Assembly: GCF_022637395.1 (NCBI RefSeq) | Contig: NZ_CP093337.1 | Coordinates: 2,526,001-2,590,000, forward strand | Source of the DNA: Shinella sp. H4-D48 | Lineage (GTDB): Bacteria; Pseudomonadota; Alphaproteobacteria; Rhizobiales; Rhizobiaceae | DNA length: 64,000 bases | Direction: 5' to 3' | Part shown: in pieces, positions 4,188 through 32,143 of the stretch | Layout of the letters: every line of letters begins with the position of its first letter | Numbering within the stretch: the stretch's first letter is position 1 | Made by a program: the position numbers and the translations under genes | Notes under the pieces: model-generated | The model's input: only the letters and a program-made list of their open reading frames with translations | The model's database searches: none | Told to the model about the DNA's origin: nothing

Positions 4188-4245
4188 CGGTCCGGCAGGC
4201 GCGATCAGCCGCTCGACGGCGGTTGTCGGGCAACGCCATCCCCAT
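4188..4245 (-). promoter_or_regulatory. Fluoride riboswitch (crcB motif)
   Basis: Read on the minus strand the leader contains GGGGATGGCGTTGCCC, then ACAACCGCC, a short loop, GCGGCTGATCGC and GCCTGCC. This matches the fluoride aptamer layout of GATG core, AACCGCC and GGCTGAT, with a GCGT/GCGC helix and a CCGCC/GCGG helix. It lies about 70 bases upstream of crcB in the same direction, the standard genomic context. Assigned by eye from the consensus; a covariance model scan was not possible. Confidence 0.85.
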
Positions 4246-4333
4246 CCCACGCAGGAATTTCTAGGCTGTGTCACCTCGGCCTGTCAAACGCCGCCCGGCG
4301 CGCCATTCCGGGCGGTGGGTGGCCGTCGGACGC

Positions 4334-18941: not shown

Positions 18942-19568
18942 GTGACGACGCCAGAAGACGCGCCCGCAGCGCGAGCGAGCCGGGCAACCCGCATCACCCT
19001 GCTGTGCCGCGGCGCCACCGCTGCCAACCGGCAGGCGCGGTTCTCAGCCGGTGATAGCCTCCTGCCGAAGGAGCCGGCCCGCGCGGCGGCGCTTGCCAAG
19101 AGCTTGCGGCCCTTCGACCGGGTGTTCTGCGCGCCGGAAGCCTCTGCGGCCGAAACGGCAGCGGCCTTTTCCGCCGCACCGATCCCCTACCCGGCGCTGC
19201 GCGATGTCGATTATGGTTCATGGAACGGACAGACCGCAGACGAGATCGCGGAGCGGTTTCCAGAGGCACTGCGGCACTGGATGACCGATCCGGCCGCGGC
19301 ACCGCATGGCGGGGAAAGCTTCGAGACGGCGGCCACACGCGCCACGGGCTGGCTCAACGGCCTGCATGGCACGGGCGGGCGCATCCTTGCCGTGACCCAC
19401 GGCATCCCGCTTAAGCTGGTTTTCGCGCATGTTGTGGGCGCACCGCTGACGGCGGTCTGGCGTATCGATGTAGAGCCGCTCGGCTTTCTCGACCTGTCGA
19501 GCGATGGACGCCGCTGGGCGCTGCGCGGTTTCGGCGCGGGCCTGCCCGCAGTTGACGACGGCGTTTGA
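18942..19568 (+). CDS. Histidine phosphatase superfamily protein with degenerate active site
   Basis: 208 aa with a phosphoglycerate mutase-like fold. Where active members read RHGET the protein reads CRGAT, so the phospho-accepting histidine is missing. The second arginine site (SSPLxR) reads CAPEAS. The later histidine in AVTHGIPLKL and the YGSWNGQT motif remain. This pattern recalls, from memory, rhizobial histidine-phosphatase-like proteins found near cobalt transport genes; that link is uncertain. GTG/ATG choice: the ATG-like start at 18942 gives the complete first strand. It is convergent with the gene ending at 19573. Confidence 0.75.
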   Translation: MTTPEDAPAARASRATRITLLCRGATAANRQARFSAGDSLLPKEPARAAALAKSLRPFDRVFCAPEASAAETAAAFSAAPIPYPALRDVDYGSWNGQTADEIAERFPEALRHWMTDPAAAPHGGESFETAATRATGWLNGLHGTGGRILAVTHGIPLKLVFAHVVGAPLTAVWRIDVEPLGFLDLSSDGRRWALRGFGAGLPAVDDGV

Positions 19569-19572
19569 CGGC

Positions 19573-20655
19573 TCAGCCCGTCGCGGCGAGCGGCAGGAAC
19601 GACACGACGGCGCCGGTCTCCGCGTGGCCGGGCGCGTCTTCGTCCGCCGCAATACCCTCCACGCCCCTGTCGAGAACGGCGCGCCATTGCGAAATCAGTT
19701 CGAGATAGGAGCCGCCGCCGAAGCGCCGGGCCATCCTGTCCTGCTGGCGCAGCGTGATGCGTACCGTCGCACGGCTGAACCGATCCGTGTGGGAGAGGAA
19801 GGATTCCGGTTCCACCCGCCGCGCCAGCCCATCCAGCACCGCCTTGCGCAGGATGGGCAGGTCCGGGCGCGCGAACTGCGAAAAGAGATCCTGGAAGCGC
19901 GCATGGTCGTCGATGTCGAAATCGAGATCGCGCCCCAGGCTGTCCATGACAGGATTGGCGGGATGCAGATAGCCGAGCGGCACATGGTACTTCGGGATCG
20001 GCGTGTTGGCCGAATGGGTGCGCCGCGAGCGGATGAGGTGCGGCAGGAGATGTGTGTGCGGCCCCGGCGGTGAGACGCCGCCGGTATCCGGGCCGCCGAT
20101 CTTCTGGAACACCTCGATGCGGCCGAGTCGGGTCAGCGCCACGCGGTGCGGATGCGCCTTCATGATGGCCGCCGTCGCCGGATTGTGCGGATCGAACAGG
20201 CTGCGGCCGATCTGCGCGCGCAGGATGGCGAGCAGCGCGGGATCGTCGGTGCGGATACAGAAATCGCATTGCGGCAGGGCAAGGCCGAGATCGAAGAGGA
20301 TGGCCGCCCGGTCCGTCACGCGCACAGCTTCCGTATCAGGGCCGAGTTCGGTCAGCGCCTTGCGACCGTTCATCGCCGCGTCTCGCTGCGGCAGGCACAG
20401 CGCCACACCATGACTCCAGCGCTGCGGCCGGCAGCTCAGCGCCTCGTAGGCGAAGGGCACGATCTGCCCGACCGTATCGGCATCGAGCCGGATGGCGCCG
20501 CGCGGTGTGGCGCGGACGAAAAGCGAGGGAGCATCGGCCTGCAGATACTCGCCCGGATCCTGGTGGAATTCCGCAACGGCGCCATACGACCCCATGCTCC
20601 ACCCTGCCCGCCGGTCGATGAGATGATCGATCAGGACATCCCTGATATCCGCCAT
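19573..20655 (-). CDS. Uncharacterised protein downstream of fdhA
   Basis: 360 aa, no signal peptide or membrane segment. I do not recognise the domain with confidence; DUF6925 is a possibility from memory. Visible features are a histidine-rich central stretch (HPHRVALTRLGRIEVFQK, GPHTHLLPHL, KYHVPLGYLHPANPVMDSLG) and a short cysteine pair, CDFCIR. The N-terminus begins MADIRDVLIDHLIDRRAGW after GGGAGGAAA, a good ribosome binding site. It lies directly downstream of fdhA in the same direction, 116 bases away with a hairpin between, so it may be part of the same function. A metal-binding role is possible from the histidines but is not shown. Confidence 0.75.
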   Translation of the reverse strand: MADIRDVLIDHLIDRRAGWSMGSYGAVAEFHQDPGEYLQADAPSLFVRATPRGAIRLDADTVGQIVPFAYEALSCRPQRWSHGVALCLPQRDAAMNGRKALTELGPDTEAVRVTDRAAILFDLGLALPQCDFCIRTDDPALLAILRAQIGRSLFDPHNPATAAIMKAHPHRVALTRLGRIEVFQKIGGPDTGGVSPPGPHTHLLPHLIRSRRTHSANTPIPKYHVPLGYLHPANPVMDSLGRDLDFDIDDHARFQDLFSQFARPDLPILRKAVLDGLARRVEPESFLSHTDRFSRATVRITLRQQDRMARRFGGGSYLELISQWRAVLDRGVEGIAADEDAPGHAETGAVVSFLPLAATG

Positions 20656-20771: not shown

Positions 20772-21962
20772 TCAGGCGGCCTTGAGCAGGTCGCCGTGCG
20801 GGTCGAGCACGAACTTCGTCGCCGCGCCCTGGTCGAAGCTCTCGTAGCCCTGCACGGCATCGTCGAGCGCGATGATCTTCGCGTTGACGATATCGGCGAT
20901 GGGCAGGCGGTCGTGCAGGATGGCCTGCATGAGCTGCCGGTTGTACTTGAGAACAGGCGTCTGGCCGGTGTGGAAGGACTGCGCCTTCGCCCAGCCGAGG
21001 CCGAAGCGCAGCGACAGGCTGCCCTCCTTGGCCGCGCTGTCGACGGCGCCCGGATCTTCCGTGACATAGAGGCCGGGAATGCCGATCGAGCCGGCGGCGC
21101 GGGTGATCTCCATCATCTGGTTCAGCACGATGGCCGGCTGCTCGCCGCCCGCATGGCCACGGGCCTCGAAGCCGACGGCATCGATGGCGCTGTCCACCTC
21201 GTTCGTTCCAACGACCTCGGCGATCATGTCACCAAGGCGGTCGCTCTTGGAAAGGTCGATCGGCTCGAAGCCCACCCGGGCGGCGTGCGCCAGACGGTCC
21301 TTGTTGAAATCGCCGATCATCACGACCGCTGCGCCGAGAATGCGGGCGGATGCGGCCGCCGCAAGCCCGACCGGGCCGGCACCCGCCACATAGACTGTCG
21401 AGCCGACGCCGACACCGGCCTTCACCGCGCCGTGGAAGCCCGTCGGCAGAATGTCGGACAGCATGGTAAGGTCGCGGATCTTCGACATGGCCTTGTCGCG
21501 ATCCGGGAACTTCAACAGATTGAAGTCGGCATAGGGGATCGTGACGTAACGGGCCTGGCCGCCGATCCAGCCGCCCATGTCGACATAGCCATAGGCACCG
21601 CCCGCACGCGACGGATTGACGGTGAGGCATACGCCGGTGTCCTGCGACTTGCAGCAACGGCAGCGCCCGCAGGCTACGTTGAACGGCACCGAGACGATGT
21701 CGCCGATCTGCAGCATCTCGACGTCGATGCCCTTCTCGATGACCTCGCCGGTGATCTCGTGGCCGAGGACGAGGCCGGGCATGGCCGTCGTGCGGCCGCG
21801 CACCATGTGCTGGTCGGAGCCGCAGATATTCGTCGAGATCACCTTGAGGATCACGCCGTGTTCGATACGGCGGCCGTCGGGGGCCTCCAGCTTCGGGTCG
21901 TCGATGTCGCGGACCTCGACCTTGCCGGGTCGCATATAGACGACGCCTCTGTTCCTGCTCAT
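20772..21962 (-). CDS. fdhA: Formaldehyde dehydrogenase, glutathione-independent
   Basis: 396 aa, close to the 398 aa of Pseudomonas putida FdhA. It oxidises formaldehyde to formate with tightly bound NAD and zinc. The catalytic zinc region is STNICGSDQHMVRG with GHEITGEV. The structural zinc cysteines are in CGRCRCCKSQDTGVC. The Rossmann loop is AGAGPVGLAAAASA (about residues 178-191). The family-specific long C-terminal part, GIPGLYVTEDPGAVD and RFGLGWAKAQSFHTGQ, is present. The start ATG follows AGGAGGAGA. A cobalamin riboswitch lies 194 bases upstream in the same direction, an unusual regulator for this enzyme. Confidence 0.95.
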   Translation of the reverse strand: MSRNRGVVYMRPGKVEVRDIDDPKLEAPDGRRIEHGVILKVISTNICGSDQHMVRGRTTAMPGLVLGHEITGEVIEKGIDVEMLQIGDIVSVPFNVACGRCRCCKSQDTGVCLTVNPSRAGGAYGYVDMGGWIGGQARYVTIPYADFNLLKFPDRDKAMSKIRDLTMLSDILPTGFHGAVKAGVGVGSTVYVAGAGPVGLAAAASARILGAAVVMIGDFNKDRLAHAARVGFEPIDLSKSDRLGDMIAEVVGTNEVDSAIDAVGFEARGHAGGEQPAIVLNQMMEITRAAGSIGIPGLYVTEDPGAVDSAAKEGSLSLRFGLGWAKAQSFHTGQTPVLKYNRQLMQAILHDRLPIADIVNAKIIALDDAVQGYESFDQGAATKFVLDPHGDLLKAA

Positions 21963-22156
21963 GTCTGTCTCCTCCTGGGTTTTGCCTCGTCCGGCCCGCC
22001 AAGCGCGCGCCGGATCCTCTCGGAACGATCGCGCAGGCCAACGGGCTGAGCGCGGAGCGTCGCTCGACGAAGGATGGAGAGGAGAAGGAAACGGGCCCTT
22101 CGAGAGGACGCCGTTCACCTCTTGATCGCCCACCGCAATCGGCCGAGTCATCGTTT

Positions 22157-22329
22157 CAGGGCTGGTTTCCGGGCTTCGGAACTGTCCTTTCGGACGCTGC
22201 CGGCACCTTCCCGGCCGACTGGCCAGTGGTGTTTGCCGGAGCTTTCGTTCCGCTACCGTTGCGGGGGCAGCACCGGCATTCGACCGGCTTCCCAATTATC
22301 CGTCCCGACATGGTCGGGACGGCACCCTG
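22157..22329 (-). promoter_or_regulatory. Cobalamin riboswitch upstream of fdhA
   Basis: On the minus strand: CAGGGTGCC, then a GTCCCGAC/GTCGGGAC hairpin, GGATAATTGGGAAGCCGGT, AATGCCGG, the core CTGCCCCCGCAACGGTAGCGG, then CCACTGG, CGGGAAGG and finally GAAGCCCGGAAACCAGCCCTG. The ends pair as CAGGG/CCCTG (P1). These are the ordered conserved blocks of the B12 aptamer. The central block is TGCCCCCGCAACGGT where the consensus is TGCCCCCGCAACTGT. The next gene downstream in this direction is fdhA; no other ORF with a credible start lies between. Confidence 0.88.
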
Positions 22330-22426
22330 TACGCACCCAGCAAACCATCTGGCGGGCCAAAGGACCCTCGGGAATACGACATCGACGGCACCCCGAACGA
22401 CATGCCGTTGAAGGACATCCCAAGGC

Positions 22427-25574
<3,148 letters not shown>

Positions 25575-25578
<4 letters not shown>

Positions 25579-25973
25579 CGTGTCCAAAATCGTTCCAGCC
25601 CTTGTCTGACGTTGTCGACATCCTCATCCGTTCCGAGCAGTTCGAAACGGTAGAGGTACGGCACGGCGCATTTCGCGGAGACGATGTTGCCTGCGAGAGC
25701 GTATCCGGTGCCGAAATTGGTGTTCCCGGCCGCGATAACGCCGCGGATCAGGCTTCGATTGTGCGGATCGTTCAGAAAGCGGATCACCGGCTTCGGCACC
25801 GCTCCCTTCTCCCCGCCGCCGCCATAGGTCGGCGAGACCAGCACGAAGGGCTCCCGCGCCGTTGGCGGCTCGTCCGTCGCGTCGACCGGCAGGCGGAGGG
25901 CCGCGACGCCGAGTTTCTCGACGAAGCGCCGGGTGTTCTCCGACCGGCTGGAAAAATAGACGAGCCCGCCCAT
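25575..25973 (-). CDS. nrdI: Flavodoxin-like NrdI
   Basis: 132 aa. NrdI is an FMN protein that helps assemble the manganese-tyrosyl cofactor of NrdF. The flavodoxin phosphate-loop equivalent is [17 protein letters not shown], and the flavin region [25 protein letters not shown] is intact. [28 protein letters not shown] is typical of the family. It starts MGGLVYFSS, 8 bases after nrdH, and its stop overlaps the nrdE start. Gene order nrdH-nrdI-nrdE-nrdF is the usual class Ib order. Confidence 0.95.
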
Positions 25974-25981
25974 CGGCCGGC

Positions 25982-26203
25982 TCAGGCGAGCGCGCTGATC
26001 ATGTCCGGGCGGAAGCCGGCCCAATGCTGCTCGCCGGCGATGACGACGGGAACCTGGCGATAACCGAGACCCTGCACCAGCGCGAAGGCATCGGCATCCT
26101 CGGAGACATCGACGACGCTGTAATCGATGCCTTGGCGGTCGAGCGCGCGGGTGGTCGCGGTGCACTGGACGCAGGCGGGCTTGGAATAGACGATGATGGA
26201 CAT
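25982..26203 (-). CDS. nrdH: Glutaredoxin-like NrdH redoxin
   Basis: 73 aa, normal NrdH length. It supplies electrons to NrdE from thioredoxin reductase. The redox motif is CVQC (in [14 protein letters not shown]), and the C-terminal [12 protein letters not shown] segment with the WxGFRPD pattern is diagnostic of NrdH rather than ordinary glutaredoxin. The ATG at 26203 follows GAGGAAAG. It is the first gene of nrdHIEF; a long leader of about 450 bases separates it from the promoter and contains the riboswitch. Confidence 0.94.
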
Positions 26204-26438
26204 GGGCTTTCCTCGTTTTTCAATCAGGCATGGGGAACCGATCGGCCATCCGCCGATGACCGTTCGAAACATTATAGAGACATGGACGGACGCCCGCGGA
26301 CGACCGGTTAAGGGGCGTCCGCCTACACGCGCGGAGAAACTGTAAACAAGATCGACATGACTTCACACCGAGACATTTTCAGCAGGGTGCACAGGGAGAC
26401 GCGGGGCGAGATCATTCGCAACCCATCGCTCGCCATCC

Positions 26439-26460
26439 GGACACCCCGCCCGTGGACGTT
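26439..26460 (-). repeat. Expression-platform segment shared with the metE riboswitch
   Basis: A 22-base stretch just 3' of the nrd riboswitch aptamer is identical to 30248-30269 after the metE aptamer. On the minus strand it contains CCACGGG, which can pair with sequence inside or beyond the aptamer. Conservation outside the aptamer suggests a common regulatory hairpin. Confidence 0.75.
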
Positions 26461-26469
26461 CATGCACGA

Positions 26470-26653
26470 GGCAGGTCTCCTGGCTCGCGGGTCGACACGG
26501 TCATCCGTCTTCCCAAGGCATTAGCGCCTCAGTGACATCATCGGATGAACGCTCACCGCTTACAGTTGCGGGGGCAGCCCCGGACAATGCGGCCATCATA
26601 GCCGCCCCGGGTTCCCGTCTTAGCCCTCGACACTTTCGAATCGAAGGAACCTC
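26470..26653 (-). promoter_or_regulatory. Cobalamin riboswitch upstream of nrdHIEF
   Basis: On the minus strand the blocks are GAGGTTCC, GGGCTAAGACGGGAACCCGG, the core GGGGCTGCCCCCGCAACT followed by GTAAGCGG, GTCACTGAGG, CCTTGGGAAG, and GCCAGGAGACCTGCC at the end. All are consensus B12-aptamer boxes in correct order. It opens about 7 bases after the predicted -10 box and ends 267 bases before nrdH. Cobalamin would be expected to repress this B12-independent reductase, as known for class Ia/Ib operons in other bacteria that also own class II NrdJ. Confidence 0.95.
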
Positions 26654-26662
26654 GAACACAAG

Positions 26663-26692
26663 ATATAGTAGACGAGGTAAAAAATGCGTCAA
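26663..26692 (-). promoter_or_regulatory. Promoter of the nrdHIEF transcript
   Basis: On the minus strand TTGACG and CTATAT are spaced by 18 bases. Transcription would start at about 26656, directly at the 5' end of the riboswitch, and four bases after the end of the thioesterase gene. Confidence 0.7.
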
Positions 26693-27829: not shown

Positions 27830-30163
27830 CTATCGGGCGGCGTGGCGCAATTGCGCGGCGGCAGCGACCATGTTGACGAGCGCGGGCCTGACCTCTTCCC
27901 ATTTGCGAGTCTTGAGGCCGCAATCGGGGTTGATCCACAGCTGGCGATCCGCCAGGCGCTGGCGGGCGAGCGACAGGAGGTCGGTCATCTCACCGATATC
28001 GGGCACGCGCTGCGAGTGAATGTCATAGACGCCGGGGCCGATCTCGTTGGGATACTGGAAGTTCCTGAAGGCATCGAGCAGCTCCATCTTCGAGCGCGAG
28101 GTCTCGATGGAGATGACGTCGGCATCCATGGCGGCGATGGCCGAGATGATGTCGTTGAACTCCGAGTAGCACATGTGGGTGTGGATCTGCGTCTCGTCCG
28201 CCACGCCACTCGAGCACAGCCGGAAGGATTCGACCGCCCAGTCCAGATAATGCTGCCAGTCCCGATGGCGCAGCGGCAGGCCTTCGCGCAAAGCGGCCTC
28301 GTCGATCTGGATCATCTTCGCGCCGGCCGCCTCGAGATCGGCGACTTCGTAGCGGATGGCGAGCGCGATCTGTCGGCAGGTGGCGCTGCGCGGGATATCG
28401 TCCCGCACGAAGGACCAGTTGAGGATCGTCACCGGGCCCGTCAGCATGCCCTTCACAGGCTTTTCGGTCAGCGACTGCGCATATTGCCACCAGCGAACGG
28501 TCATCGGGTTCGGCCGCGAGACGTCGCCGAAGATGATCGGCGGGCGGACATAGCGCGAGCCGTAGCTCTGTACCCAGGCGTGCTGCGTGAAGGCGAAGCC
28601 GGCAAGCTGCTCGCCGAAATACTGCACCATGTCGTTCCTTTCGAACTCGCCGTGCACCAGCACATCCAGCCCGATCTCCTCCTGCCAGCGGATCGCCGCA
28701 GCCGTCTCCTTTTGCAGAAAGGTCTCGTAATCCTTGTAGCTCAGCGCGCCCTTGGCGTGGGCGGAGCGTGCCTTGCGGACTTCGCTGGTCTGCGGGAAGG
28801 AGCCGATCGTCGTTGTGGGGAAGAGCGGCAGGTCGAGTGCCTTTGCCTGGAGCGCGCGGCGATGCTCGAAGGGGCTCTTGCGGCGCGTCATCGCCGCATC
28901 GATGCCGGCAATGCGGCCCTGCACCAGGGGATCGGTTACCTTCGGCGAGGACGCTCGCGCCGCCACCGCCTGCGCGGCCTCGTTGATCGCCTCCCACACG
29001 CCATCCCTGCCCTGTGCAAGCCCTTGGCCGAGCGTTGCAAGCTCGCCCAGCTTCTGGGTGGCGAAGGACAGCCAGCTTTTCAGCTCCGCATCGAGCCCGG
29101 TTTCGAGCGCAAGGTCGATCGGCACATGCAGGAGCGAGCACGAGGCGGCGACTTCGACCTTGTCAGCCCCCCGAGCGGCGACGACCGGCGCCAGCCGCTC
29201 CAGGATGGCGGCAAGATCGGCCCGCCAGATGTTGCGCCCGTCGATGACGCCGAGCGAAAGGACCTGATCGGCCCGGACAACCTTCAGGATTGCATCAAGC
29301 TGGTTCGGCGCGCGCACGAGATCGACATGGAGGCCGGCGACCTGAAGGGCGGCCGCGGCATTGAGATTGTCCCCCGGCGCGCCGAAATAGGTGGCAAGCA
29401 TGATGTTCAGCCCGGGTGCGGCCTTGGCGAAGGCCTCATAGGCCAGTTTGAAGGCATGGCGCTCGCCTTCGGTGAGGTCGAGGGCGAGGATCGGCTCATC
29501 GACCTGCACCCAGTCGGCGCCGGCGGCGCGCAGCCGGCGGAACAGCTCTTCATAGACGGGCAGCAGCTTCGCCAGAAGATCGAGCGGCTTGAACGTGGAG
29601 GGGCGCGCCTTGGCGAGCTTGAGGAAGGTGACCGGCCCCAGAACGACCGGGCGGGTGTGGATGCCGAGCGCCCTGGCCTCGAGGAAATGATCGACGGGCT
29701 TCTGTGAGGTCAGGGCGAAGGCCTGATCCTCGGAAACTTCGGGCACCATGTAGTGGTAGTTGGTGTCGAACCATTTGGTCATCTCGAGCGCGGGAACGCC
29801 GTGGCCATGGTGGGCATGGCCGCAATCGGCGTGGCCATCGCGCTCACTGCCGCGCGCCATCGCGAAATAGGTGGCAAGCGACACGTCGCCGCCCGTCCAG
29901 CCATATGCCGGCGGAATGGCGCCGACCATCACGGCCGTGTCGAGAACGTGGTCATAGAGCGAAAAATCGTTCGAGGGGATCTTGGTGATCCCGATGTCGC
30001 GCTGGAGCGCCCAGTTTTCGGCGCGCAGCTTCCGGGCGGTTTCGAGCAGGTCGGCCTCGGCAACCTTGCCGGACCAGAAGCCTTCCAGCGCGAATTTCAG
30101 CTCGCGGTGGCGGCCGATACGCGGAAAGCCGAGCGAAGCGACGGAGAGAGTTTTGTTGGACAT
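27830..30163 (-). CDS. metE: Cobalamin-independent methionine synthase MetE
   Basis: 777 aa, normal MetE size. It transfers a methyl group from 5-methyltetrahydropteroyl-triglutamate to homocysteine. Two barrel halves are visible: N-terminal ASLGFPRIGRHRELKFALE and C-terminal TTTIGSFPQTSEVRKAR. Zinc ligands are in THMCYSEFNDI (His, Cys), in the glutamate of the following barrel strand, and in NPDCGLKTRKWEEV (Cys). The ATG at 30163 has GGGG seven bases upstream; the ATG two codons earlier has poor spacing. It is controlled by a cobalamin riboswitch, so it should be made only when B12 is scarce. Confidence 0.97.
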   Translation of the reverse strand: MSNKTLSVASLGFPRIGRHRELKFALEGFWSGKVAEADLLETARKLRAENWALQRDIGITKIPSNDFSLYDHVLDTAVMVGAIPPAYGWTGGDVSLATYFAMARGSERDGHADCGHAHHGHGVPALEMTKWFDTNYHYMVPEVSEDQAFALTSQKPVDHFLEARALGIHTRPVVLGPVTFLKLAKARPSTFKPLDLLAKLLPVYEELFRRLRAAGADWVQVDEPILALDLTEGERHAFKLAYEAFAKAAPGLNIMLATYFGAPGDNLNAAAALQVAGLHVDLVRAPNQLDAILKVVRADQVLSLGVIDGRNIWRADLAAILERLAPVVAARGADKVEVAASCSLLHVPIDLALETGLDAELKSWLSFATQKLGELATLGQGLAQGRDGVWEAINEAAQAVAARASSPKVTDPLVQGRIAGIDAAMTRRKSPFEHRRALQAKALDLPLFPTTTIGSFPQTSEVRKARSAHAKGALSYKDYETFLQKETAAAIRWQEEIGLDVLVHGEFERNDMVQYFGEQLAGFAFTQHAWVQSYGSRYVRPPIIFGDVSRPNPMTVRWWQYAQSLTEKPVKGMLTGPVTILNWSFVRDDIPRSATCRQIALAIRYEVADLEAAGAKMIQIDEAALREGLPLRHRDWQHYLDWAVESFRLCSSGVADETQIHTHMCYSEFNDIISAIAAMDADVISIETSRSKMELLDAFRNFQYPNEIGPGVYDIHSQRVPDIGEMTDLLSLARQRLADRQLWINPDCGLKTRKWEEVRPALVNMVAAAAQLRHAAR

Positions 30164-30247
30164 GGACATACCCCATTGGTTTGTGGGGGCATGGGTAAGC
30201 GGACGCGTGCAAAAGCCGCCGCAATCGACGGGCTGCAGCAACCACCG

Positions 30248-30269
30248 GGACACCCCGCCCGTGGACGTT
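30248..30269 (-). repeat. Expression-platform segment shared with the nrd riboswitch
   Basis: Identical over 22 bases to 26439-26460. On the minus strand CCACGGG here can pair with CCCGGTGG about 8 bases further on, and its CACGGG can instead pair with CCCGTG inside the aptamer end. Such competing pairings fit a switching element. Confidence 0.75.
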
Positions 30270-30279
30270 ATTTCGTCTT

Positions 30280-30459
30280 GGCAGGTCTCCTGGCTCACGG
30301 GTCATCGCCGCTGTCCGTCTTCCCAAGGCATCGCCTCAGTGACATCGCTGGACAACAGCTCGCCGTTTACAGTTGCGGGGGCAGCCCCGGCCTTGCCGAT
30401 CATCTCGGCGCACCGGATTCCCTCTTAGCCCCGCAGCAGCAGAACTGCCCCGGGGAACC
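30280..30459 (-). promoter_or_regulatory. Cobalamin riboswitch upstream of metE
   Basis: Minus-strand blocks in order: GGTTCCCC, GGGGCTAAGAGGGAATCCGG, GGGGCTGCCCCCGCAACTGT, AAACGGCGAGC, GTCACTGAGGCG, GCCTTGGGAAGACGG, and GAGCCAGGAGACCTGCC. This is a full consensus B12 aptamer and metE is a classic target. The aptamer ends about 117 bases before the metE start. Confidence 0.97.
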
Positions 30460-30470
30460 ATGACACGGGC

Positions 30471-30499
30471 ATATCTCCCGACAATCATTTGGAAGTCAA
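30471..30499 (-). promoter_or_regulatory. metE promoter
   Basis: TTGACT and AGATAT are separated by 17 bases on the minus strand. The predicted start point (about 30464) is just ahead of the riboswitch. Confidence 0.65.
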
Positions 30500-30756: not shown

Positions 30757-31983
30757 TCAGGGACGGCTGATCTCGTCGAGATACCACTCGATGTAGCGCA
30801 GCTCGTTCTGCTCCATCGGCGCAATCGGGCCAGGCACGAAATAGTGCGACTGCACGCCGCGTGCGGTGTGCTCGATGATCGCTTTGTCCTCTTCCGTCGT
30901 AACCTTCCACAGCCAGGTGAGCTTGGCGAGGTCGTAATCCCTGCCCTCCTCCGCCTTGCCGTCGACCAGCCAGATCAGTTCCATCTCGCAGCTTTCCGCG
31001 GATTTCGGAATGAAGCGATAGATCATGCCGTGATCGGGATAGCAGACGAGGAACGTGGTGCCGCCGAGATGGATGGAGGTGACGCCGCCATCGAAATCGG
31101 AGAAGCGGCCCATCAGCGGCGCGACCGCCTTGCCGTCCTCGCTGCCGCTCTGCACGCCGTCATAGAGGGCATAGCGGAAGGCGTGGATCGCCTCGCGGCC
31201 CTCCCGGGACGTCTGCCAGTGATTGCCCGAGCCGACCTCGATGCCGAGCGCGCAGGTGCGCGCCTCCATCGCCTCGTTCAGCGCCTCGATCATATGCAGC
31301 GGCTGTTCCAACGCATGGGTCTGCGAATATTCCGGATGCGCCGGGCCGCAATGATAACATTCGACATAGTTCTCGACTGCGAGCTTCCAGTTCGCCGCCA
31401 CTGGATAGGACTCGCGATGGGCCACCTTCGCACTCGCCCAGCCATATTGTCCGCAGGTGGCGTGCAGCAGGTTCTCGACCTCGGAGAAATCGAGTGGCTG
31501 CTCGGCGAAGGAGATGAAGATCAACCCCTCGACCACGCGCACATTGAGCGTCTTCAGGCCATGATCCTCGCGTTTGAAATCCTTCGGCATCAGCCGCGCG
31601 GCCTTGAGGCTGCCGTCGTTGCCGTAGGTCCACGCATGATAGGGACAGACGAAGACGCGCGCATTGCCCTTCTGTTTCGTGCAGACCTCAGCGCCGCGAT
31701 GGCGACAGACGTTCAGCACCGCATGGATACTGCCATCCGCAGCCCGCGTCACGATCACCTGTTCCGTGTCGATGCGGAAGACCTCGAAATCGTTGACGTT
31801 CGGGATCACGCTCTCATGCGCGATACAGTGCCAGTGCCGGCGGAAGACACGCTCCATGTCGCGCCGGTAAATCTCCGCATCCTGATAAAACGCCCGCGCC
31901 AGCCCATGCCCCGCCCGATGGCCCGCCACAAGACCATCGATGCGATCGCCAACACCATCGATTACAGCTTCAAGAGCACTCAT
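30757..31983 (-). CDS. Rieske non-heme iron oxygenase, alpha subunit
   Basis: 408 aa from the preferred ATG (MSALEAVIDG). The Rieske [2Fe-2S] motif is CRHRGAEVC...CPYHAWTYG (about residues 90-115). The catalytic mononuclear iron site is in NYVECYHCGPAHPEYS, giving the two histidines, with an aspartate expected near the C-terminus. The WKLAVENYVECYHC run resembles quaternary-amine demethylases such as GbcA and stachydrine/carnitine oxygenases. No reductase partner gene is adjacent, so electrons must come from elsewhere. Given the bet operon in the same window, glycine betaine or a related betaine is a reasonable but unproven substrate. Confidence 0.88.
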   Translation of the reverse strand: MSALEAVIDGVGDRIDGLVAGHRAGHGLARAFYQDAEIYRRDMERVFRRHWHCIAHESVIPNVNDFEVFRIDTEQVIVTRAADGSIHAVLNVCRHRGAEVCTKQKGNARVFVCPYHAWTYGNDGSLKAARLMPKDFKREDHGLKTLNVRVVEGLIFISFAEQPLDFSEVENLLHATCGQYGWASAKVAHRESYPVAANWKLAVENYVECYHCGPAHPEYSQTHALEQPLHMIEALNEAMEARTCALGIEVGSGNHWQTSREGREAIHAFRYALYDGVQSGSEDGKAVAPLMGRFSDFDGGVTSIHLGGTTFLVCYPDHGMIYRFIPKSAESCEMELIWLVDGKAEEGRDYDLAKLTWLWKVTTEEDKAIIEHTARGVQSHYFVPGPIAPMEQNELRYIEWYLDEISRP

Positions 31984-32143
31984 CCCGCGCATGACCTTCA
32001 ATGACAATTTGAAGGCAGTATTCCGGGGTACCTGGCGGCCGACAAGATGGCGGAGAGAGGGGAATTAATCGAGGAGGTCGATTAGAGCGCCGCTCATGCG
32101 GCTTGTTCGACAAAGCCGGAACCGCCGGGGCTGCTGACGCCGC

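Follow-up and report, generated by a model that had tools for sequence, protein, structure and literature searches.

Why should an RNA that presumably senses vitamin B12 stand in front of a gene for the disposal of formaldehyde? In Shinella sp. H4-D48, the 64,000 nt of DNA analysed here (the window) carry a cobalamin riboswitch of family RF00174 upstream of fdhA; riboswitches of this family often precede genes of cobalt and cobalamin operons. The element had been proposed in an earlier note on this DNA, which asked for a covariance scan, and the RF00174 model of Rfam matches over its full length (positions 1-189), scoring 107.3 bits where the gathering threshold is 31.5. The span first given, 22157-22329, is the inner part of this match, and the central block GCTGCCCCCGCAACGGT and the closing CAGGG/CCCTG helix are both there. 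The distance to fdhA is 180 nt by the Rfam boundaries, while the 194 nt reported before count from 22157. That no other credible gene lies between aptamer and fdhA is borne out by an alignment of ten fdhA leaders: apart from the RNA element, it reveals a stretch rich in pyrimidines, a hairpin and the Shine-Dalgarno site, but no conserved gene. The features of this unit are as follows.

22143..22344, minus strand: cobalamin riboswitch aptamer of the gbcA/fdhA subtype (RF00174, 107.3 bits, E 6.7e-26)
22255..22271, minus strand: core of the L5 region, GCTGCCCCCGCAACGGT, read from the RF00174 match
22160..22175, minus strand: 3' core of the subtype, AGCCCGGAAACCAGCC (canonical AGCCAGGAGACCTGCC), exact match at G000:C1:2548160-2548175
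22124..22140, minus strand: P13 hairpin GATTGC-GGTGG-GCGATC with a loop able to pair with L5 (by eye)
22065..22092, minus strand: pyrimidine-rich leader stretch, a possible Rho loading site
21967..21976, minus strand: Shine-Dalgarno site AGGAGGAGAC of fdhA (leader alignment)
20772..21962, minus strand: fdhA, glutathione-independent formaldehyde dehydrogenase, 396 aa (TIGR02819)
19573..20655, minus strand: DUF6925 gene, 116 nt 3' of fdhA (PF21973, 404.7 bits)

The first 14 bases of the L5 core recur with at most two mismatches in 48 of the 49 riboswitches that we compared, the exception being the one before bluB. As judged by eye, P13 is kept in all ten fdhA leaders (one base differs in L027 and a loop base in G125) and shows changes on both strands in gbcA leaders; it is present in the consensus fold of the ten fdhA leaders and in five of ten single-sequence folds. 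Pairing appears possible between CCCCC of L5 and a P13 loop of GGTGG, GGCGG or GGAGG, with the central base left unpaired (by eye). Inspection by eye and folding identified no intrinsic terminator and no occlusion of the Shine-Dalgarno site in the fdhA leader, and because this site lies about 150 nt beyond P13, past the pyrimidine-rich stretch and a GC hairpin, P13 itself is unlikely to block the ribosome. The excess of C over G in 60-nt windows reaches 7 to 18 in the ten fdhA leaders (background 95th percentile 9, 99th percentile 13), which hints at Rho. A hairpin such as GCCCGC-GGAGGA-GCGGGC stands directly 5' of the fdhA Shine-Dalgarno site in several riboswitch leaders as well as in G017 and G018 without a riboswitch, its loop being different in the window copy; the GGA in this loop resembles a CsrA/RsmA site.

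The protein behind this leader scores 714.9 bits against TIGR02819, above the equivalog cut-off of 636.95, and its closest PDB entries are the formaldehyde dehydrogenases 1kol and 4jlw (640.6 bits; a dismutase reaches 447.5). A close second copy is absent from the genome, where the next best protein has 95 bits and 37% identity. The DUF6925 gene is probably co-transcribed with fdhA; it follows fdhA in six of 52 fdhA loci including the window (in pieces in L101), and the AlphaFold model of its product has a mean pLDDT of 35.9. An RF00174 match lies between fdhA and the DUF6925 gene on the same strand in G125. Convergent with the pair, a histidine phosphatase gene (window 18942-19568) shows weak likeness to the alpha-ribazole phosphatase CobC (78.3 against 162.9 bits), and a fluoride riboswitch was seen at window 4189-4252 on the minus strand (36.1 bits).

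The riboswitch of fdhA is one of three cobalamin riboswitches in the window, all on the minus strand and all full-length matches to RF00174.

22427..26272, minus strand: nrdHIEF, class Ib ribonucleotide reductase
26453..26669, minus strand: cobalamin riboswitch before nrdHIEF, canonical type and core (RF00174, 121.1 bits)
27830..30166, minus strand: metE, B12-independent methionine synthase
30263..30477, minus strand: cobalamin riboswitch before metE, canonical type and core (RF00174, 125.2 bits)
30757..32007, minus strand: second Rieske oxygenase of the GbcA/Stc2 superfamily, here with no riboswitch in front

The B12-dependent counterparts of these two targets, MetH and NrdJ (2363.6 against 1737 bits), are encoded elsewhere in the genome. 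The second Rieske gene adjoins the metE riboswitch directly upstream, a neighbourhood found in several Shinella. Genome-wide there are eight RF00174 matches, standing before metE, nrdHIEF, fdhA, gbcA-gbcB, bluB, cbtA-cobW-cobN, an ABC transporter and metH, so that three of the eight (bluB, cbtA-cobW-cobN and perhaps the ABC transporter) have targets of the cobalt/cobalamin type. The metH riboswitch is canonical (124.9 bits, L093:5172-5399) and is separated from metH by a small reading frame; metH itself encodes a B12-dependent enzyme, and its repression by this riboswitch would be paradoxical. Genes for small proteins (about 70-110 aa) that share a P-x-GAD motif lie 3' of cobalamin riboswitches: before metH here (L093, C1:190000-196500), before a second Rieske gene in L213, and in L218 and L219, where no further recognised gene follows.

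The arrangement of riboswitch and fdhA is conserved within the genus. Nine of 21 Shinella genomes have fdhA, and seven of these nine carry RF00174 180-189 nt upstream of it. In a draw of 394 genomes from the family Rhizobiaceae, fdhA was found at E 1e-150 in 45, and combining both sets gave 52 fdhA genomes. Among the matches listed, RF00174 stands directly before fdhA (155-228 nt) in nine of these, i.e., the seven Shinella, G125 and G193. In another five it leads, within 6 kb and on the same strand, a gene run that ends in fdhA: riboswitch-gbcA-gbcB-fdhA (G196), riboswitch-gbcA-gbcB-second Rieske-fdhA (G394, with one in-frame TGA in fdhA), riboswitch-homocysteine methyltransferase family gene-fdhA (G083), and riboswitch-nrdHIEF followed by fdhA in the Shinella genomes G017 and G018. 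The remaining 38 of 52 fdhA loci lacked RF00174 in a separate Rfam scan of 4.0-13.2 kb per locus, so B12 control of fdhA would be a habit of certain lineages; a fixed rule that fdhA is B12-controlled is ruled out by these loci.

What remains of the fdhA riboswitch in G017 and G018 is a piece of 59 nt from its 5' half, between nrdF and fdhA, with a local score of 62 against the G000 and G014 copies, where 500 base shuffles reach a maximum of 40 to 48; against the G006 copy it scores 39, and shuffles reach 41 and 37. Beyond these sets, 80 named loci from a collection of species-level genomes were scanned with a pattern for the core; two have it before fdhA, and Rfam confirms one of them (L027, 104.2 bits). 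A query with riboswitch plus fdhA retrieved four named records, three from Shinella and one filed as Sinorhizobium, at 97-100% coverage and 86-88% identity, and on a plasmid of Shinella sp. WSC3-e RF00174 (105.4 bits) precedes an annotated fdhA. No locus that we examined has a cob or cbt gene between riboswitch and fdhA.

The aptamer itself is of an unusual kind. An alignment of 49 aptamers separates two kinds, one with a AGCCCGGAAACCAGCC core and one with the canonical AGCCAGGAGACCTGCC core. The former is found in all ten fdhA aptamers and 21 of 23 gbcA aptamers as well as the copy in G083 and a second copy in G196, the two odd gbcA copies being those of genus g94. Thirteen aptamers before metE, nrd, metH, ABC transporter and DUF6925 genes have AGCCAGGAGACCTGCC within two changes, and the bluB aptamer fits neither core. 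AGCCAGGAGACCTGCC, which is typical wording rather than a defining feature, is absent from the ten fdhA copies compared, and since all ten have AGCCCGGAAACCAGCC in its place, we call theirs a variant. It shares with other RF00174 riboswitches the full-length match, the L5 core and a P13 loop able to pair with L5; it differs from the canonical form in that AGCCCGGAAACCAGCC replaces AGCCAGGAGACCTGCC and that one helix pair is switched on both sides from A-U to U-A (by eye). A second mark of the subtype is GGATAATTGGGAA where metE and metH have GCTAAGAGGGAA, though this mark varies outside Shinella and its near relatives, with TAATTGGGAA exact in seven of 30 loci. In a FastTree phylogeny of the aptamers, fdhA and gbcA copies group together (support 0.85), with the fdhA copies not forming one clade inside this group. 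By this alignment, a stray cob leader can be dismissed for fdhA: its aptamer is of a separate subtype common to gbcA and fdhA.

A scan of the 394 genomes with the 16-base motif found 128 places in 114 genomes and 40 of 109 genera; the reversed pattern gave zero matches. In all 30 loci examined, the start of a GbcA homologue lies 135-163 nt downstream of that of the motif (L202, at a contig end, has the homologue in two pieces), and 28 of the 30 have the L5 core within two mismatches; L193, one of the other two, still matches RF00174 with 112.5 bits. Among the matches listed (150 of 171 gbcA places), 101 of 102 genomes, from 31 genera, have the motif 109-198 nt upstream of gbcA; the sole exception, G119, has RF00174 (111.2 bits) before gbcA without the exact motif. 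The other 12 motif genomes have no gbcA place among the matches listed, and at the cut-off used, gbcA is missing from five genomes that carry the motif. On this evidence from motif and gene order, the usual target of the subtype in this family is gbcA.

Additional copies of the motif precede a second Rieske oxygenase (L213 and L214, with 78-79% identity to the one in the window), a small reading frame (L218 and L219) and fdhA; a further homologue of the second Rieske protein (75% identity) is encoded in the riboswitch-led gene run of L135, and in L207 the motif is followed by gbcA-gbcB-homocysteine methyltransferase. A motif match does not always mean a riboswitch, as those in L208, L210 and L216 fall in coding sequence by chance. 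L206 (G140) is a real aptamer (107.4 bits) with no obvious target, and L112:9696-9895 is likewise a riboswitch of the subtype without a clear target.

In the genome studied here, gbcA-gbcB follows its RF00174 match by 106 nt. The encoded oxygenase is called a Rieske N-demethylase of the GbcA/Stc2 type, with 3n0q (555.5 bits) and 3vca (522.2 bits) as PDB matches, the latter of which we take to be the proline betaine demethylase Stc2. Because it scores 511.3 bits against the GbcA equivalog NF058607 (cut-off 670), glycine betaine is not assured as its substrate, and proline betaine or another compound is possible too. Oxidative N-demethylations of the GbcA/Stc2 kind release formaldehyde.

The same genome encodes a protein of the MttB family (PF06253, 782.6 bits against a gathering score of 25), whose PDB matches include 4yyc and the glycine betaine methyltransferase 9yce (424.3 bits). 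Its gene lies beside genes for a corrinoid protein, a DUF1638 protein, a metF-like protein and a pterin-binding methyltransferase; the MtgC-like corrinoid protein stays below the cut-off for MtgC (NF047996, 212.3 against 370).

The riboswitch before gbcA follows the presence of this corrinoid methyltransferase across the family, bearing in mind that PF06253 counts the whole MttB family and not MtgB alone. Among 171 gbcA-bearing genomes of the 394, 119 have MttB and 52 do not, and the subtype motif, counted anywhere in the genome and in its exact form that misses variants, occurs in 109 of the 119 and in none of the 52. Within genera, the counts with and without MttB are 3/3 and 0/4 in g30, 4/4 and 0/2 in g48, 2/3 and 0/2 in g107, and 0/1 and 0/6 in g94. 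Rfam scans gave a similar picture: across 64 genomes (two without gbcA), all 26 with MttB have RF00174 96-175 nt upstream of gbcA, as do seven of the 36 without; in 39 gbcA loci scanned over about 370-470 nt upstream, it is found in 13 of 17 with MttB and one of 22 without; and directly before fdhA it is found in nine of 14 with MttB and none of 38 without. Each of the 64 genomes carries at least one cobalamin riboswitch, so its absence before gbcA does not reflect a general loss of B12 sensing.

Exceptions occur in both directions. RF00174 precedes gbcA without MttB in five g94 genomes, in G017 and G018 (two Shinella genomes that lack MttB) and, weakly, in G403 (36.1 bits), and in four genomes with MttB (G121, G192, G375 and G378) the roughly 400 nt before gbcA contain no RF00174. 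Among motif-negative genomes with MttB, it precedes gbcA in four of eight scanned (G053 and G255 left out). On a tree of 100 GbcA proteins, which were not a random draw, 62 genomes have both riboswitch and MttB, four MttB only, eight the riboswitch only and 26 neither. Six independent pairs differ in MttB, and the riboswitch follows in 4.5 and opposes in 0.2 of them on average (median p 0.125); the direction is thus consistent, but independent switches are few.

We consider it likely that ample B12 leads to repression of fdhA through this riboswitch of a distinct subtype, as part of a small B12 regulon for betaine-type N-demethylation. This proposal builds on the riboswitch, its conservation, the subtype common to gbcA, the shared gene runs and the co-occurrence with MttB. 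With B12 present, MtgB/MttB, MtgC and MtgD would pass methyl groups to folate without forming formaldehyde, and the riboswitch would repress the demethylation route made up of the oxygenase and FdhA. At low B12 the corrinoid methyltransferase route would stop and the riboswitch would release gbcA-gbcB and fdhA; the Rieske oxygenase GbcA-GbcB, presumably acting on a betaine, should then liberate formaldehyde, which FdhA would oxidise to formate. Such derepression would parallel the replacement of MetH by metE and of NrdJ by nrdHIEF. We infer the sign of regulation from metE and nrdHIEF, which share the locus, and from PMC10653944, according to which the corrinoid riboswitches known before a single activating case repress. 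As in the known switches described there, ligand binding should favour pairing of the P13 loop with L5; the output would thus run through P13/L13 and probably act on transcription, where our guess is termination, perhaps by Rho.

A more tentative and rather doubtful extension concerns the ligand. The subtype, which leads gbcA in 31 or more genera of the family, would gate two chemistries of betaine demethylation and may read methylcobalamin or another corrinoid form and not adenosylcobalamin. This idea comes from the change of GGAGA to GGAAA in J6/3, the strand that we assume to face the upper ligand. The subtype would then sense the methyl-loading state of the corrinoid pool, unlike the metE and nrd switches in the same cell.

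Among other explanations, one invokes general one-carbon balance: B12 shortage stalls MetH, methyl-folate builds up, and FdhA must oxidise formaldehyde from any demethylation. That riboswitches of metE and nrdHIEF adjoin fdhA and that MetH is encoded would suit it, but we find it improbable since it fails to predict the gbcA subtype (instead of the metE type) of the fdhA aptamer and fails to predict the link to MttB. The earlier note had offered this methyl-folate trap as a possible link. Its broader idea of B12-dependent methyl-group flow as the link to fdhA stands, while the trap itself gives way to a choice between two demethylation routes, as fdhA shares its aptamer subtype with gbcA, the genome's own gbcA has such a riboswitch and the subtype tracks the corrinoid methyltransferase.

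Very unlikely, in our view, is an activating switch by which B12 turns gbcA and fdhA on. One activating corrinoid riboswitch has been described (PMC10653944) and the fdhA leader revealed neither terminator nor Shine-Dalgarno occlusion by eye or folding, but the corrinoid riboswitches known earlier repress (PMC10653944) and both demethylation routes would run together. The chance is negligible that a cobalt/cobalamin operon leader was fused to fdhA by accidental deletion with no adaptive meaning, an alternative raised in the earlier note for which the three such targets among the eight riboswitches of this genome might speak: we reject it because of the non-canonical subtype common to gbcA and the conservation of the unit, which is kept in seven of nine Shinella and in several gene contexts, with the P13 loop preserved in ten copies and no cob or cbt gene between at the relatives' loci examined.

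If our preferred reading of a B12 regulon for betaine-type demethylation holds, it gives a regulatory rule for when a bacterium that owns both routes uses the one that makes formaldehyde, which is toxic. It predicts that, in soil bacteria and those associated with plants, the supply of B12 or cobalt determines how much formaldehyde arises when betaine is used, and it makes gbcA and fdhA new candidate targets for control by cobalamin riboswitches. A cell that naturally holds this subtype together with canonical aptamers would also be material for work on ligand selectivity.

Judging from titles, we found no report that ties gbcA or fdhA to a cobalamin riboswitch. The 2003 regulon survey of Rodionov and colleagues could list such targets. 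The words betaine, formaldehyde and Rieske are absent from the main text of PMC3766115, as are betaine and formaldehyde from the text of PMC9600662. In the text of PMC12478193, "riboswitch" appears once, in the title of a reference, and we found no regulatory link to B12 there.

Aerobic corrinoid-dependent demethylation of betaine was discovered in 2025 with the glycine betaine methyltransferase MtgBCD (PMC12478193, where GbcAB is said to yield formaldehyde). The genome studied here resembles that system in having MttB, a corrinoid protein, a metF-like protein and a pterin methyltransferase encoded close together, an arrangement described there for S. meliloti and Ruegeria. A plasmid of Agrobacterium tumefaciens 1D1609 has consecutive genes for a Rieske oxygenase, a reductase and FdhA, with betaine transport genes next to them; the 16 kb taken from this region contain no RF00174 match. 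Among known riboswitch targets, the closest comparison is with B12-independent isozymes such as metE, a category in PMC3766115. As for these, B12-dependent counterparts are encoded in the same genome (MetH, NrdJ and MttB). The difference is that the target here is an oxygenase route together with a detoxifying dehydrogenase: the reaction of FdhA is not that of a B12 enzyme, and gbcA would replace MtgB only if their substrates coincide.
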